Shown here piece after piece: positions 42,719 to 48,984 of a stretch of 49,108 nucleotides of DNA. A program made the position numbers and the translations under genes. Numbering within the stretch: the stretch's first letter is position 1; each line of letters starts with the position of its first letter. The DNA comes from Pirellula sp. GTDB lineage: Bacteria > Planctomycetota > Planctomycetia > Pirellulales > Pirellulaceae. The notes beneath the pieces were generated by a model. The model searched no databases and was not told where the DNA came from. It saw nothing but the letters and a program-made list of their open reading frames with translations. Location: the NCBI GenBank assembly GCA_021299695.1, contig JAJTEK010000009.1, positions 1 through 49,108 on the forward strand. Direction: 5' to 3'.

Positions 42719-45421
42719 ATGCATTCCTCAGCCTACCCTCAGGCAACTCGACGGTGGTTTAATACGCTCGGACAACGCTCCATAAGCCGGATCGCTCAGA
42801 CTAGGCCCCTCGCGTTGGCCCTCGCGGCGGTCTTGTGCGCGAACCTGTGCGCGAACCTGTGCGTGGGCCTGTGCACAATCGCCTGCGCTCCGATGGCCAC
42901 TGCGCAGGAACCCCAGCAACCAGGTAGGCCCCAGCAACCTGGTATTCCCCAGCAATCTGGCCGGCCCCAGCAACCAGGTAGAATCGGCATCGGGGCACTG
43001 GCCAAAGCACCCGATGCGGTATGGATCGAATCGCTCATCGAAGCCGATGCGATGGATTTGGCCGTCGAGGTTTGCCGATTCCATTTCGATCGCTCGATTC
43101 CAGACTCGAACGCTCAAGCCCAATGGCTGATGCTGCTGATGCATGCCAAAGCCGCCGATTCGCTCGGGAAGATCGATTGGAACGCAGCGGTCAAGCCACT
43201 CCAAGAGGCGATCGAACAGCTTCAAGGCCTCGATCCCAAGCCCTCGGCATTGGGCGAACCGACCTACCGCAAGCCTTGGGTCCACTGGAAGCTTCTTTGG
43301 TGCCGACGTCTGCTCAACGAACACGCCCTTGCAGCCTACTTGGCGGTCCCCGGTCGCCAAGCGTTGCAGGAATGGTTGTTGCAATCGATCCGTATCGGAC
43401 TCGATGGGATCGATACGCTCGAGCAATCGGTCGCCAGAATGCAACCCGATAAACCATTGCTCTCAAGAGCCGACAGGCAGCGCAGGGATCAAACCCGTCC
43501 CAACGAGATCACCGCAAGTGAGATTCTCGATCTGCGCGGTGAGCTGGAGTTGCTGCGTGCCGATTTGCTGTACCAACGTTCGCAATGCTATGCGTCCGAA
43601 AGCGACGAACAAATCGCGGCTGCAACGCAGATGCTCAGCTCGATCGATCGCGCCACGGGTCGGCTTCCTGCGAACTGGGCCCATCGACCGCTCCTGACGT
43701 TGGCCAAGGCCGAGGCCGAACTGCAGCTCGGTCGCCACGGCGCGGTCCTCAAAAGCCTCGATGAACTTTGGATCACCCTGGCAACCGACCCGAATCCACA
43801 GGCCAAGGCATGGCGGATCCGCACAGCGGCGCTGGCCGTCCGCAGCGCAAGCCGCACGCAGGATTGGGGGGGTGCCGAGGCCTGGATGGCACGAGCCGGA
43901 GGCTGGCAACAAGCTCCCGAGTTGGCTCTCGAACACCTTGGAATCCTGGTCCAACGCGACGCCAATACGCTCGAACCTCAAAGGATCCTTGCACTCCGCG
44001 AACAAATCGCCGATCGCTTCGGACGCTACTGGCAACAACGGGTCGATGCGATGCTCGTGTCGAACCCCCGCTTCGAATCGGGCCAAAGACCCAAGTCCGA
44101 TACCTCGATGGCCTCGTTGGAGTTGTTTCGCATCCAGGCCCGCCAAGCCATCGCGGCAAATGAATTCGAAACGGCCATCGAGAAGCTCCAGCAGGCCGAG
44201 TCGGCCGCCTCGAAGCTCGATGCGAGCCAAGAAGCCTTCCAATTCGCCATGCAGATCGCTGCCTTGCTCGAACGCACCGGCGAAACGTCGGCTGCCGCCG
44301 ACGAGTTCTATCGCGCGGCGATCTCCTACCCGGAATCCCCCACAGCTTCCTCGGCTGGGCTGATGTCGGCTTGGTTGATTCGCAAGAGCGACTCGAATCT
44401 CGATCCCGAGGCCAAGCTGTTGCAGGAGAAGATTTTTTTGCAGCGGTTGCGAGAAACCGCGCTGTCCTGGCCAGAGAGCCAGCCAGCCCAAAAAGCATCG
44501 GAAATGCTCGATCTTCAATGGCTCACCAGCGGCCAGTACATCGCCTGCCTCGAGTTTTGGAAAGAGCTTTTGGCCAAAGACCCCCAACGATCCGACATGG
44601 CCTTACGACGCTGGTTGCTCGTGGCCCTCGTGACGCAAGACGACTGGCTCGAGAAACCGCTGGAGAACCCCCAGGGCGTCCGCAAAGCCGCCTCGGAGTT
44701 GCAAGCCGCGTTGCTCGAATCCAAAGTTCCTGCAGAACGCGCGGCACTGGCTGCCTGGATGGACGCTACTTGGTTGGACGCCAACAAACCACCGCGCCGA
44801 TGGTCGCTCGCCCCAGGTCCAGGGCTTGAAAGCCCAACTCCCCCGGATTTGATAAGTCAAATCGCCGAGTTTTGGAACCGGTGCGAGGCAAGTTGGCAAC
44901 AAGGAGGACCACAAGGGGGACTCCGCGCAGAAGATGCCGAAACTGCAAAAGACATCGACCAGTTGGAGCAACTCCGCAAACAACTCGGCGATTTGGCCGA
45001 TGGGGTCTCGGGTGGCTTCCAAGTCCGCTTGGATCGATTCCTCGAGTTCGGTCGATTGATCCTGCCGCCTGGCGACCGAGCTGCGAGCGATCCAGCGAAA
45101 CTTCGCCAAAGACTCGAGGCGAGGATTTCCAAGGAGCCGAAATCGCTATGGTGGGTCTATCGATCGGCGCGCGCCATGCAGGCGACGAGCCAGTTGCGCG
45201 AGGTATCGCTCGGTTGGTACCGACAGATGGCAGCGGGGGTTGCAGCCGGGACCGAGCCTTGGCTAGAAGCCCGAGCGCGGAGCATTGAAATTCTCCGAGC
45301 GCTGGGTCAGGAATCCAAAGCCGTCGAGCTTGGCCAATTGGTACTCGCTTCGTATCCGAATCTGAGCGACGAATGGAAAAAGCGATTCGGTCCGAATCGA
45401 GATCCGGCTGTTAAGAATTAA
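42719..45421 (+). CDS. Large secreted helical-repeat (TPR-like) protein, unknown function
   Basis: 900 residues. An N-terminal signal peptide (LALALAAVLCANLCANLCVGLCTIACAPMATAQ) is followed by a QQPGRP low-complexity linker (18-bp repeat), then an almost entirely alpha-helical chain with many Ala/Leu/Gln/Glu-rich helix pairs (for example AIEKLQQAESAASKLDASQEAFQFAMQIAALLERTGETSAAADEFYRAA) like TPR or SEL1 solenoids. It may scaffold an envelope complex; no catalytic motif is visible. The last codons, including the TAA, lie within the first copy of the repeat that recurs after the helicase gene. Confidence 0.7.
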   Translation: MHSSAYPQATRRWFNTLGQRSISRIAQTRPLALALAAVLCANLCANLCVGLCTIACAPMATAQEPQQPGRPQQPGIPQQSGRPQQPGRIGIGALAKAPDAVWIESLIEADAMDLAVEVCRFHFDRSIPDSNAQAQWLMLLMHAKAADSLGKIDWNAAVKPLQEAIEQLQGLDPKPSALGEPTYRKPWVHWKLLWCRRLLNEHALAAYLAVPGRQALQEWLLQSIRIGLDGIDTLEQSVARMQPDKPLLSRADRQRRDQTRPNEITASEILDLRGELELLRADLLYQRSQCYASESDEQIAAATQMLSSIDRATGRLPANWAHRPLLTLAKAEAELQLGRHGAVLKSLDELWITLATDPNPQAKAWRIRTAALAVRSASRTQDWGGAEAWMARAGGWQQAPELALEHLGILVQRDANTLEPQRILALREQIADRFGRYWQQRVDAMLVSNPRFESGQRPKSDTSMASLELFRIQARQAIAANEFETAIEKLQQAESAASKLDASQEAFQFAMQIAALLERTGETSAAADEFYRAAISYPESPTASSAGLMSAWLIRKSDSNLDPEAKLLQEKIFLQRLRETALSWPESQPAQKASEMLDLQWLTSGQYIACLEFWKELLAKDPQRSDMALRRWLLVALVTQDDWLEKPLENPQGVRKAASELQAALLESKVPAERAALAAWMDATWLDANKPPRRWSLAPGPGLESPTPPDLISQIAEFWNRCEASWQQGGPQGGLRAEDAETAKDIDQLEQLRKQLGDLADGVSGGFQVRLDRFLEFGRLILPPGDRAASDPAKLRQRLEARISKEPKSLWWVYRSARAMQATSQLREVSLGWYRQMAAGVAAGTEPWLEARARSIEILRALGQESKAVELGQLVLASYPNLSDEWKKRFGPNRDPAVKN
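42911..42982 (+). repeat. 18-bp in-frame tandem repeat (PQQPGR)n
   Basis: Four 18-bp units beginning CCCCAGCAACC at 42911, 42929, 42947 and 42965 encode P-Q-Q-P/S-G-R/I hexapeptides between the signal peptide and the helical region. Confidence 0.95.
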
Positions 45422-45500
45422 ACGCAAAGTCGCAAAGTCGCAAAGTCGCAAAGAAATCCCTTCTGTAGCGTAGTGGATCTCCCGCACAAGATCCGTCCGC
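45402..45500 (+). repeat. Direct repeat, copy A (upstream of HIT-helicase gene)
   Basis: Starts ATCCGGCTGTTAAGAATTAA, then three CGCAAAGT units plus CGCAAAG (45423-45453), then AAATCCCTTCTG.AGCGTAG.GGATCTCCCGCA. Copy B at 48815-48912 agrees over about 90 bp with only a handful of substitutions. Copy A spans the stop codon of the upstream solenoid gene. Confidence 0.9.
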
Positions 45501-45550
45501 TCAGTATTGCATCCGATCCCTGATCGCCCATATGGCTCTGGAATTTTGCT

Positions 45551-45615: not shown

Positions 45616-48600
45616 ATGCTCTGCCCGTTCTGTCCAATCGATAGCCAACGGATCCTCTTTCGGCACTCCGTCGGATCGGCAAGCGTCGTTGCCCTCTGGG
45701 ATGGCTTTCCCGTCAGCCCCGGCCATCTGCTGATCGTCCCGGTCCGGCACGTCCCAACCTGGTTCGACGCCTCCCCCGAAGAACACCAAGCACTCACGGG
45801 TGCATTGGAAATCGCCAAATCCCACATCGAATCGCAATTCCAACCCCAAGGCTACAACATCGGGATCAACGTCGGTGCCGCCGCCGGTCAAACCGTTTCC
45901 CACCTACACGTCCACCTTATCCCACGCTACCACGGCGATGTTTCCGACCCACGCGGCGGGGTGCGGCACGTGATCCCGCAACTTGCGAATTATCTAGCCG
46001 AAAATCCTCCCGACTACCTCGTCAACAAAAGGACCTACCGCTCCGGTTCATCGAGCCACTTTACACGAGGCGAACTCGATCCGCTTTTGCCTAATCTCAA
46101 ATCGGCGATCGATCGGTCCGAACAAGTCGACTTCTCGGTGGCTTTCATCAAGCAGAGTGGACTCGATCTGCTCCGAGGGCATTTGCAAGACCTCCTCGAT
46201 CGCCAAGGCCGCGTTCGAATCATCACCGGCGATTACCTCGATGTGACCGAACCCGAAGCCCTCGAGGATCTGCTTGAGCTAGGCCCAAGCCTCGAACTTT
46301 ACGTCGTCGAGTGCAGCCCCGGAATGTCCTTCCACCCCAAAGCCTACCTCTTCTACAACACCAAACATCCATCCACTGGCCACTCAGCCACTGACCACTC
46401 TCCTATTGGCCATTCCGCCTACATCGGCAGCTCGAACCTCTCTCGCATGGCTCTGCAGACCGGGATCGAGTGGAACTACCGCGTCGATCCGACGATCCAC
46501 AGCGCTGGATTCGGAGCCATGACCGCCGCCTTCGAAGAGCTCTTGCAAGACCCCCGCACCAAACGGGTGGATACCGATTGGATCGATCGGTACCGAGCCC
46601 GTCGCCGCGAGTCGAAGCTCATTCGCATGGACATCGACAGCGACACATCCGAACCGATACCAGATCCGCATGCGATCCAGCGCGAAGCCCTCGCGGCGTT
46701 GGCCCAAACGCGGCTCGATGGGAACCGAGCTGGCCTGGTCGTCCTAGCGACGGGACTTGGTAAAACCTATCTGGCTGCATTCGATGCGGCTAGCAAAACG
46801 CCAACCGACGAGTTTTGTTTTCCTCGCGTGCTGTTTGTAGCCCATCGCGACGAGATCCTCCATCAATCGATGCGGACATTTCGCAGGATCCGACCCAGCT
46901 CAAGCTGTGGCAGGTACGACGGGAGCCTAACGGCTTTGCAGATCGGTCGCATCGAGATGCTCTTTGCGTCGATCCAGACGCTCGGCCGCGTAGAGCATCT
47001 GAAGCGATTTGCGCCCGATGCGTTCGATTACATCGTCGTCGACGAATTCCATCATGCGGCGGCTTCGACCTATCGGAGGCTCTTGGACCATTTCCAGCCC
47101 AAGTTCCTGCTGGGGCTGACGGCCACCCCCGAGCGGACCGACGGCGGGGATTTGTTGGGGCTGTGCGATGAGAACCTCGTCTACCGCTGCGACTTGATCC
47201 GGGGGATCGAAGAGGAGTTGCTCAGTCCGTTCGAGTACTTTGGGGTCCCCGACGAAGTCGACTACAGCAACATCCCTTGGAGGAGCAGGCGGTTTGACGA
47301 AGCTGCATTGACCACAGCGGTATCGACCCATGCCAGGGCCCAAAATGCGCTCGAGCAATTGCATCGGGTGGGTGCCAAGCGGACGTTAGGTTTTTGTTGT
47401 TCGCAGCAGCATGCCGACTTCATGGCCGAGTACTTTCGGGGAGCGGGGTTAAGGGTCGCGTCGGTCCATTCCGGACCGGATTCGGATCCGAGGGCCAGGT
47501 CCCTTGATGCCCTTTCGACCGGTGAGCTCGACATCGTGTTTGCCGTCGACATGTTCAACGAAGGGTTAGACATCCCGAGCATCGATACGGTCTTGATGTT
47601 GCGACCGACCGAATCGAGTATTTTGTGGTTGCAGCAGTTTGGTCGGGGCTTGCGCAAGAGTCCGGACAAGCAGCGGTTGAAGGTGGTCGATTACATTGGG
47701 AACCACCGAACGTTTTTGGTGAAACTTCGCTCGATGCTCCAGCCGTTGTTGCGAGTGGGCGAGTCCGATTCGGAGATCCGGCGAGGGTTGCAGATGTTGC
47801 AGCAAGGCGAGGCCCAGTTGCCTGTCGGTTGCAGTGTAACGTATGAGTTAGCGACGATCGATTTGATTGAGCAAGTGCTGCGTCCTGCGAGTCGCACCGA
47901 GGCGATGAATGCCTTTTATCGGGACTTTGAAGAGCGGCATGATCAGCGGCCCACGGCCCGGGAGGCCTATCATGCCAGTTACAACCCAAGGGCATTGAGA
48001 GCAAGTCATGGGAGTTGGTATGGGTATGTCGCCGCGATGGGTGGACTCCAAGCCGAGGATCGGGCGGCATGGGAACATCAGCGAGCATTTTTCGAGTGGG
48101 TCGAAGTCACACCGATGGTCAAGAGTTACAAGATGCTGGTGTTATTGTCACTATTGCAGAGCGAACTACCGCCAAGCGATACCGGGACAATCGAGATTGG
48201 TATCAGTGCGATGGTCCAAGCCGTGCGTCGGATGGCCGATCGGAGTGCGGCATTGAAGGCGGATTTAGGCGAGGAGCATTTAGAGAGCGATTCCAAGTTA
48301 CGGCGTCATTTGGAGCGCAATCCGATCAATGCTTGGACCAATCCCGACGGTGGCTATTTCGAGTATCGCGAGGGGGTTTTCCGCTGGTTCGGGGGGGACC
48401 TAGGCATTCACCGCGATCGCTTTGCAGGGTTGTTACGGGAGTTAGTCGATTGGCGATTGGCCGAGTACTTGGATCGGGGGAAGGAGCAAGTGGGATATCG
48501 TTGTCGGATCATCTCATCGGGAGGTCGGCCCATCATCAAGTTACCCAGCAGGACCGTTGTAGCGAACCTTCCGATCGACTGGGTATCGGTCGAGATTGAC

Positions 48601-48789
48601 GAAAAGACCTATGCGGCCAAATTTGCCCAGCAGTACATCAACGTCGTCAGAGAGACCCAGGAGTCCGCAGAGAATATCCTTGGCGATATCTTACGAAGTT
48701 GGTACGGCCCGACGGTTGGCCAGAGAGGGACCCGTTTTGAGGTCCAATTAGTGCAAGAGGCCGACGGCTGGCAGCTTCGCAAAGTGTAA
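45616..48789 (+). CDS. HIT domain - PLD nuclease - SF2 helicase fusion protein
   Basis: 1057 residues, no signal or membrane segment. Order: an N-terminal CPFC knuckle and HIT domain (1-110) with triad HLHVH (H96, H98, H100), a family of nucleotidyl hydrolases and transferases; a PLD-type domain (about 145-320) with one HPKAYLFYN (H240, K242) and GSSNL (271-275); an SF2 helicase (about 350-700) with ATGLGKT (378-384), DEFHH (476-480), TAT (502-504) and QFGRGLR (674-680). A C-terminal region of about 350 residues has no family I recognise. A single HKD half-site suggests dimerisation. Single-gene nuclease-helicases of this general kind often serve in defence; HIT enzymes such as aprataxin remove AMP from DNA ends. 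Joint action on aberrant DNA ends is inferred, not shown. Confidence 0.88.
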   Translation: MLCPFCPIDSQRILFRHSVGSASVVALWDGFPVSPGHLLIVPVRHVPTWFDASPEEHQALTGALEIAKSHIESQFQPQGYNIGINVGAAAGQTVSHLHVHLIPRYHGDVSDPRGGVRHVIPQLANYLAENPPDYLVNKRTYRSGSSSHFTRGELDPLLPNLKSAIDRSEQVDFSVAFIKQSGLDLLRGHLQDLLDRQGRVRIITGDYLDVTEPEALEDLLELGPSLELYVVECSPGMSFHPKAYLFYNTKHPSTGHSATDHSPIGHSAYIGSSNLSRMALQTGIEWNYRVDPTIHSAGFGAMTAAFEELLQDPRTKRVDTDWIDRYRARRRESKLIRMDIDSDTSEPIPDPHAIQREALAALAQTRLDGNRAGLVVLATGLGKTYLAAFDAASKTPTDEFCFPRVLFVAHRDEILHQSMRTFRRIRPSSSCGRYDGSLTALQIGRIEMLFASIQTLGRVEHLKRFAPDAFDYIVVDEFHHAAASTYRRLLDHFQPKFLLGLTATPERTDGGDLLGLCDENLVYRCDLIRGIEEELLSPFEYFGVPDEVDYSNIPWRSRRFDEAALTTAVSTHARAQNALEQLHRVGAKRTLGFCCSQQHADFMAEYFRGAGLRVASVHSGPDSDPRARSLDALSTGELDIVFAVDMFNEGLDIPSIDTVLMLRPTESSILWLQQFGRGLRKSPDKQRLKVVDYIGNHRTFLVKLRSMLQPLLRVGESDSEIRRGLQMLQQGEAQLPVGCSVTYELATIDLIEQVLRPASRTEAMNAFYRDFEERHDQRPTAREAYHASYNPRALRASHGSWYGYVAAMGGLQAEDRAAWEHQRAFFEWVEVTPMVKSYKMLVLLSLLQSELPPSDTGTIEIGISAMVQAVRRMADRSAALKADLGEEHLESDSKLRRHLERNPINAWTNPDGGYFEYREGVFRWFGGDLGIHRDRFAGLLRELVDWRLAEYLDRGKEQVGYRCRIISSGGRPIIKLPSRTVVANLPIDWVSVEIDEKTYAAKFAQQYINVVRETQESAENILGDILRSWYGPTVGQRGTRFEVQLVQEADGWQLRKV
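46366..46419 (+). repeat. 15-bp in-frame tandem repeat inside the PLD domain
   Basis: Residues 251-268 (HPSTG HSATD HSPIG HSA) come from three 15-bp units plus a partial, with CATCCATCCACTGGC-like composition. They sit between the HxK and GSSN motifs of the PLD-like domain, where a loop must vary. Confidence 0.85.
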
Positions 48790-48800
48790 CGGAGCCGTAT

Positions 48801-48914
48801 ATCTCCCGCAAAAAATCCGGCTGTTAAGAATTAAACGCAAAGTCGCAAAGTCGCAAAGTCGCAAAGAAAACCCTTCTGAAGCGTAGAGGATCTCCCGCAA
48901 AAGAACCGGCTGTT
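48801..48914 (+). repeat. Direct repeat, copy B (downstream of HIT-helicase gene)
   Basis: Contains the same 90-bp block as copy A (48815-48912) with the same CGCAAAGT array (48836-48866). In addition ATCTCCCGCAAAA.A.CCGGCTGTT occurs at 48801-48825 and again at 48890-48914, so the unit may be tandemly organised with a period near 89 bp. Confidence 0.85.
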
Positions 48915-48984
48915 CACCCTCACCAAATTTTCCCCTAACATTACCCACCTAAGTCACCGCGCACGCACCAGAAACGCGGCCCCC

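Follow-up and report, generated by a model that had tools for sequence, protein, structure and literature searches.

The DNA analysed here, hereafter the window, comprises 49,108 nucleotides of Pirellula sp. contig JAJTEK010000009.1 and carries an open reading frame that starts with ATG and encodes a protein of 1057 aa (Table 1). Its N-terminal motifs are CPFC at residue 3 and HLHVH at 96 (H96/H98/H100), followed by the PLD motifs HPK at 240 and GSSN at 271 and the SF2 motifs ATGLGKT at 378, DEFHH at 476, TATPERT at 502 and QQFGRGLR at 673. The first-pass annotation had read three activities in this one frame, which is confirmed by profile searches and by motif positions within about one residue of those it gave. 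Pfam places HIT (PF01230; E = 1.3e-21, aa 23-106), ResIII (4.7e-35) and Helicase_C (2.3e-12) above cut-off, and PLDc_2 (1.9e-4, 21.7 bits) under its cut-off of 27. Two AF2 models cover the C-terminus, one of aa 836-1057 (two-domain) and one of aa 955-1057 (CT-only); in the former the coupler-like region is mostly helical. Ten other ORFs of the window were scanned with Pfam; those that gave a match are of kinds such as MnmE, GatB, amidase and transporters, so the surroundings do not have the evident look of a defence island.

Table 1. Features of the locus, in positions of the window.
Feature	Positions	Strand	Basis
HIT-PLD-SF2-coupler-CT protein with SauUSI-like core	45616..48789	+	ORF, Pfam, PADLOC and PDB matches, SauUSI alignment
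HIT domain (aa 3-124): CPFC knuckle, GQT, HxHxH triad, then DPRGGVR	45622..45987	+	Pfam, PDB, conservation
PLD-family nuclease half-site (aa 156-330; H240, K242, N274, E285)	46081..46605	+	SauUSI nuclease alignment
SF2 helicase-like ATPase, RecA1 + RecA2 (aa 351-700)	46666..47715	+	Pfam, PDB, SauUSI alignment
Coupler-like region (aa 710-940)	47743..48435	+	SauUSI coupler alignment up to aa 851; AF2 model
CT domain (aa 955-1057)	48478..48786	+	AF2 model; Pfam and PDB searches; stands where SauUSI has its SRA reader
Dispersed direct repeat, upstream copy	45402..45503	+	92% identity to downstream copy over 102 bp
Same dispersed direct repeat, downstream copy	48815..48916	+	92% identity to upstream copy

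Relatives were collected by keeping the best 80 of 483, a sample that leans towards the window protein, and adding loci from genome searches; the 125 proteins recovered were merged into 109 distinct rows. The HIT catalytic motif is kept in 73 of these (the HIT-intact rows), degenerate in 11, undetected by profile in 23 and lost to a 5' cut in two. By record title, the three-domain order for which the first-pass annotation suggested searching occurs in organisms of several phyla. All tree-based counts below come from a quick tree, midpoint-rooted for drawing, in which 29 of 106 inner branches are weak.

The core of the protein is homologous to SauUSI, as judged by alignment, a relationship that the first-pass annotation missed together with the separate C-terminal domain (about 955-1057). 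The best solved relative of the protein is PDB 7CLG, the SauUSI structure accession according to the available part of PMC7913695. Residues 157-851 align to SauUSI 40-710 (E = 4.2e-76) across nuclease, ATPase and part of the coupler, in the order published for SauUSI, and PADLOC mREase_IV matches aa 129-751 (E = 1.1e-108). H240, K242, N274 and E285 align with SauUSI and are kept in 73/73 HIT-intact rows, and in 109/109 rows GSSN has a glutamate no more than 12 residues after it; given this alignment and these conserved active-site residues, we retain the PLD assignment despite the sub-threshold PLDc_2 match. The acidic residue five positions after the lysine in SauUSI (HxKx4E) is Y247 here, with E or D in just 6/109 rows. 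Together with the HxHxH triad, the conserved H240, K242, N274 and E285 bear out, by sequence, the earlier expectation that the HIT and PLD signatures are intact. Since aa 157-851 align with SauUSI, the union of PLD and helicase in a single chain is already known.

DISARM, where PLD and helicase are separate genes, was rejected as nearest relative, as PADLOC and PDB both place SauUSI nearest. SauUSI shares with the window protein the single-chain arrangement of PLD nuclease, SF2 ATPase and coupler over about 695 homologous residues; it differs in having no HIT domain and an SRA reader at its end, where the window protein has HIT and CT (PMC7913695, available part). This reader (806-953) has no counterpart in the alignment to the 1057-aa protein. 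Classical SauUSI-like proteins of the phylum (PADLOC mREase_IV, loci L153-L182, n = 30) belong to the same core family. DUF3427 is present in 29/30 of their loci and neither HIT nor CT in the enzyme of any, whereas the window protein is the opposite; the single HIT match, at L165, lies in the neighbouring gene, and L177 is N-terminally cut. NgoAVII and CglI likewise combine a PLD nuclease with an SF2 ATPase, with B3 as their reader, but are built from two kinds of subunit in another domain arrangement (PMC7913695, same part). Among the matches listed from the open-licence literature, by titles and starts of abstracts, we found no description of a HIT domain fused to a PLD-helicase, and the available part of PMC12458937 has nothing on HIT domains.

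The gene is patchily distributed, with homologues (E <= 1e-100) in 33/241 genomes of the family and 7/27 of the genus. One genome (G472) carries it at the same site as the window genome. In another (G483), mnmE-TPR and PSD1 are syntenic and 1.8 kb of other DNA lies between them, without a HIT gene at the site; the genome has its own copies on other contigs. The 1.8 kb at this gene-less site (L142:7009-8827) contains low-complexity repeats and a 266-codon frame that ends in a Cys-rich segment. In the window, direct repeats of 102 bp flank the gene, and a 101-bp query from the repeat finds 13 places in the window genome, the two flanking copies included. Tandem copies without the HIT gene follow the TPR gene in G477, whose contig stops short of the site's far side. 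The repeat does not score as a strong hairpin (z -0.47). Within the genus, occurrence is patchy and the flanks differ, which speaks against universal housekeeping proteins with fixed neighbours, the case in which the first-pass idea of a defence gene was to fall; a housekeeping gene was rejected on this patchiness and the gene-less syntenic site. Taken over all points, the first-pass interpretation is supported in part.

For 26 of the 80 loci, a maximum of four ORFs (130-900 aa) on either flank of the relative was scanned, 141 in total. These ORFs match 85 PADLOC models (E <= 1e-10), AbiEii, DrmMII and GajB-like among them, with at most two ORFs per model and without a control set, a weak signal. 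A plasmid collection yielded five matching records and a phage collection eight, none covering >80% of the query.

We consider it probable that the gene encodes a SauUSI-like DNA endonuclease that depends on ATP, carries a fused HIT domain and belongs to an accessory restriction system, presumably one directed against phages or plasmids; the defence role is one that we infer from homology and genomics. SauUSI is described as a dimer through its PLD domains that translocates on DNA and shreds the DNA between target sites (PMC7913695, available part). By homology, two chains would pair via their PLD domains into one HxK active site, and a C-terminal recognition part would find the DNA target. 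Recognition would switch on the SF2 motor, which would move along the DNA, and converging or stalled motors would trigger double-strand cuts. We propose CT as the recognition part here because the m5C-reading DUF3427 and SRA are absent, its candidate target being a modified base or a plain sequence. The HIT domain might regulate or assist the nuclease via an adenylated nucleotide, which is the least certain step. The gene seems to represent a branch of bacterial defence that has drawn little notice. If this is true, a SauUSI-like branch with a conserved nucleotide-processing HIT domain and varied C-terminal domains exists in several phyla, linked to SprT-like or S24 proteases depending on the lineage, and restriction would be connected to nucleotide chemistry and protease control.

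The CT domain of about 103 aa has an AF2 model (aa 955-1057) with pLDDT 92.8 and pTM 0.85 and is predicted to consist of seven strands and one helix. It has no consistent Pfam family match, and a sequence-profile search of the PDB gave nothing of note (best E 0.62). Foldseek comparisons of the two models with the PDB were not significant (best E 0.28 and 0.52), nor were those with viral models, in which one viral protein reached a probability of 0.66 at E 0.29. A DNA-reading role for CT is a guess. To describe the C-terminal ends, CT was scored by an HMM (alignment A3) with a coverage filter and DUF3427 by profile. Of the HIT-intact rows, 66 also have a complete 3' end by the criterion used here; their tails are CT-S24 (22), CT-DUF3427 (12), CT alone (11), DUF3427 alone (7), CT-S24-DUF3427 (5) and none (9, broken ORFs included). 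Most HIT-intact rows carry DUF3427 or S24 alongside CT. Two of the eleven rows with CT alone (L015 and L024) extend by about 160 aa of further unrecognised sequence, and L064, L065 and L073 have an unrecognised C-terminal region where CT and DUF3427 would stand.

On the core tree, the combination of C-terminal domains switches no fewer than nine times among the 87 rows with a recognised tail; single-domain changes number seven for DUF3427, three for S24 and one for CT. The total is 18 if rows without a recognised tail are counted, several of which are broken or cut ORFs. Because it changes once and coexists with DUF3427 or S24, CT behaves, as far as this tree can tell, as an established component of the branch with intact HIT and not as an exchanged reader; gains and losses concern mainly DUF3427 and S24. 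Across the phylum, CT occurs in 12/392 genomes and shares its protein with HIT in 10/12; the other two are 5'-cut (G018) or fragmentary (G169). DUF3427 is treated as a presumed modified-base reader in the available parts of PMC3874153 and PMC7159879. It is present in many relatives and gave no match in the 1057-aa protein by Pfam and profile searches. As the protein is without this domain, the m5C-specificity reader of SauUSI, modification dependence is not to be assumed.

The lack of DUF3427 would also suit a sequence-specific restriction enzyme whose methyltransferase is lost or distant and whose CT is a B3-like site reader, a rather unlikely reading that is compatible with the core of our preferred explanation. 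In the 50 Foldseek matches listed for each model, the highest probability went to 6c5d_B, the N-terminal domain of LlaJI.R1, for the two-domain model (0.30, E 1.8) and to 4i1k_A, VRN1, for the CT-only model (0.21, E 1.4). We take both to be B3 folds. However, these E-values are poor, each chain is absent from the 50 matches listed for the other model, and the viral protein scored a higher probability. The pairing of PLD with a B3 reader in NgoAVII and CglI favours the idea (PMC7913695, available part), while CT is fixed in its branch, 17 complete rows with intact HIT have it together with DUF3427, and no methyltransferase family appeared among the neighbours scanned with Pfam.

Two kinds of protease accompany the gene in relatives. 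An S24 (LexA/UmuD-like) peptidase is fused C-terminally to HIT-PLD-SF2-CT in Planctomycetota (L103, L104 and L105, in which PF00717 is above cut-off, and other rows), in some proteins with a further unrecognised tail after S24. A SprT-like ORF precedes the gene in the same orientation in 10/39 HIT-intact loci that lack S24 and have >600 nt of upstream sequence; three of the ten were seeds of the SprT-like profile. Pfam itself names SprT-like in 4/141 neighbour ORFs. The loci are L008, L009, L018, L022, L031, L035, L039, L050, L070, L102 and L121, with L050 too short to be counted. Between profile matches, nine of the ten counted loci have a gap of 8-184 nt to the HIT gene; in L039, where the gene is fragmented, it measures 818 nt. 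Upstream SprT-like matches were absent from 25 HIT-intact S24 loci, one degenerate S24 locus and 30 other loci with a degenerate or no HIT; SprT-like upstream and fused S24 never occur together in one relative. They were likewise absent from the 30 classical loci (flanks of up to 1.5 kb a side, some shorter), and SprT had no match in the window genome.

These associations could be explained by protease-licensed, nucleotide-gated restriction, of which the window protein would be a stripped-down member without protease; we think this improbable. The HIT domain would turn over an adenylated signal, or strip AMP from ligase-activated ends so that they are not resealed, and the SprT-like protease as operon partner, or the fused S24, would activate the nuclease or clear proteins ahead of it. 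Nuclease-protease pairs in antiviral immunity, reported in the available part of PMC12799240, offer no more than an analogy.

The HIT domain finds its best PDB matches in a HIT-domain protein, Ap4A phosphorylases, other HIT proteins and Fhit. Ap4A phosphorylase, Fhit and Hint share with it the HIT fold and HxHxH, but the matched chains are HIT proteins of 117-218 aa without a nuclease fusion. The analogy to aprataxin drawn in the first-pass annotation finds no support, since the best solved matches lie with the proteins just named, and aprataxin was rejected as nearest HIT relative: no chain of that name stands among the 19 HIT matches listed (PDB, E <= 1e-8) or the 60 PDB matches listed for the whole protein. 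Aprataxin has a C-terminal zinc finger after its HIT domain; the Pfam scan of the 1057-aa protein reported no zinc-finger family.

Conservation bears on whether this domain is catalytic. H96/98/100 and GQT are near-invariant in HIT-intact rows, partly since they define that class. Residues outside the definition are likewise kept (H37 71/71, N85 73/73, R104 73/73, G114 73/73, R117 72/72), and across 35 representatives the median pairwise identity is 0.53 for HIT, 0.44 for PLD and 0.64 and 0.60 for the RecA domains. In our view the HIT domain is most probably catalytically active, as a nucleotidyl hydrolase or transferase on an adenylated nucleotide. Alternatively, HIT could be a non-catalytic structural relic of a past fusion within a restriction enzyme, a reading that is compatible with the core of our explanation and in keeping with the HIT-less enzymes of the 30 classical loci. 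In 34/109 rows the domain is either degenerate or not detected, for which reason the core may work without it. Thirty of these 34 fall into a single clade whose record titles are alphaproteobacterial and in which several rows read HxHxR, and HIT state changes at least seven times on the tree. A relic nonetheless seems quite improbable, given the near-invariant non-defining residues of HIT-intact rows and a HIT domain more conserved than PLD.

Repair of DNA ends or DNA-protein crosslinks, with HIT removing AMP, PLD removing adducts, SprT removing protein and the helicase exposing the lesion, would draw on HIT and PLD folds that occur in aprataxin and Tdp1 and on the upstream SprT-like ORFs, but is very unlikely with a core nearest to an endonuclease, HIT matches of the Ap4A phosphorylase and Fhit kind, a patchiness that ill suits a housekeeping repair enzyme and a window genome lacking SprT.

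Contacts with classical SauUSI-like genes were seen at three places: a HIT-type gene adjoins one at G178:C49 and at G164:C760, and a CT + S24 gene, its 5' part off the contig, does so at G164:C624. Contig C212 of G000 begins with a partial SauUSI-like nuclease end (1-705), followed at C212:1057-1120 by the same dispersed repeat that flanks the gene in the window.
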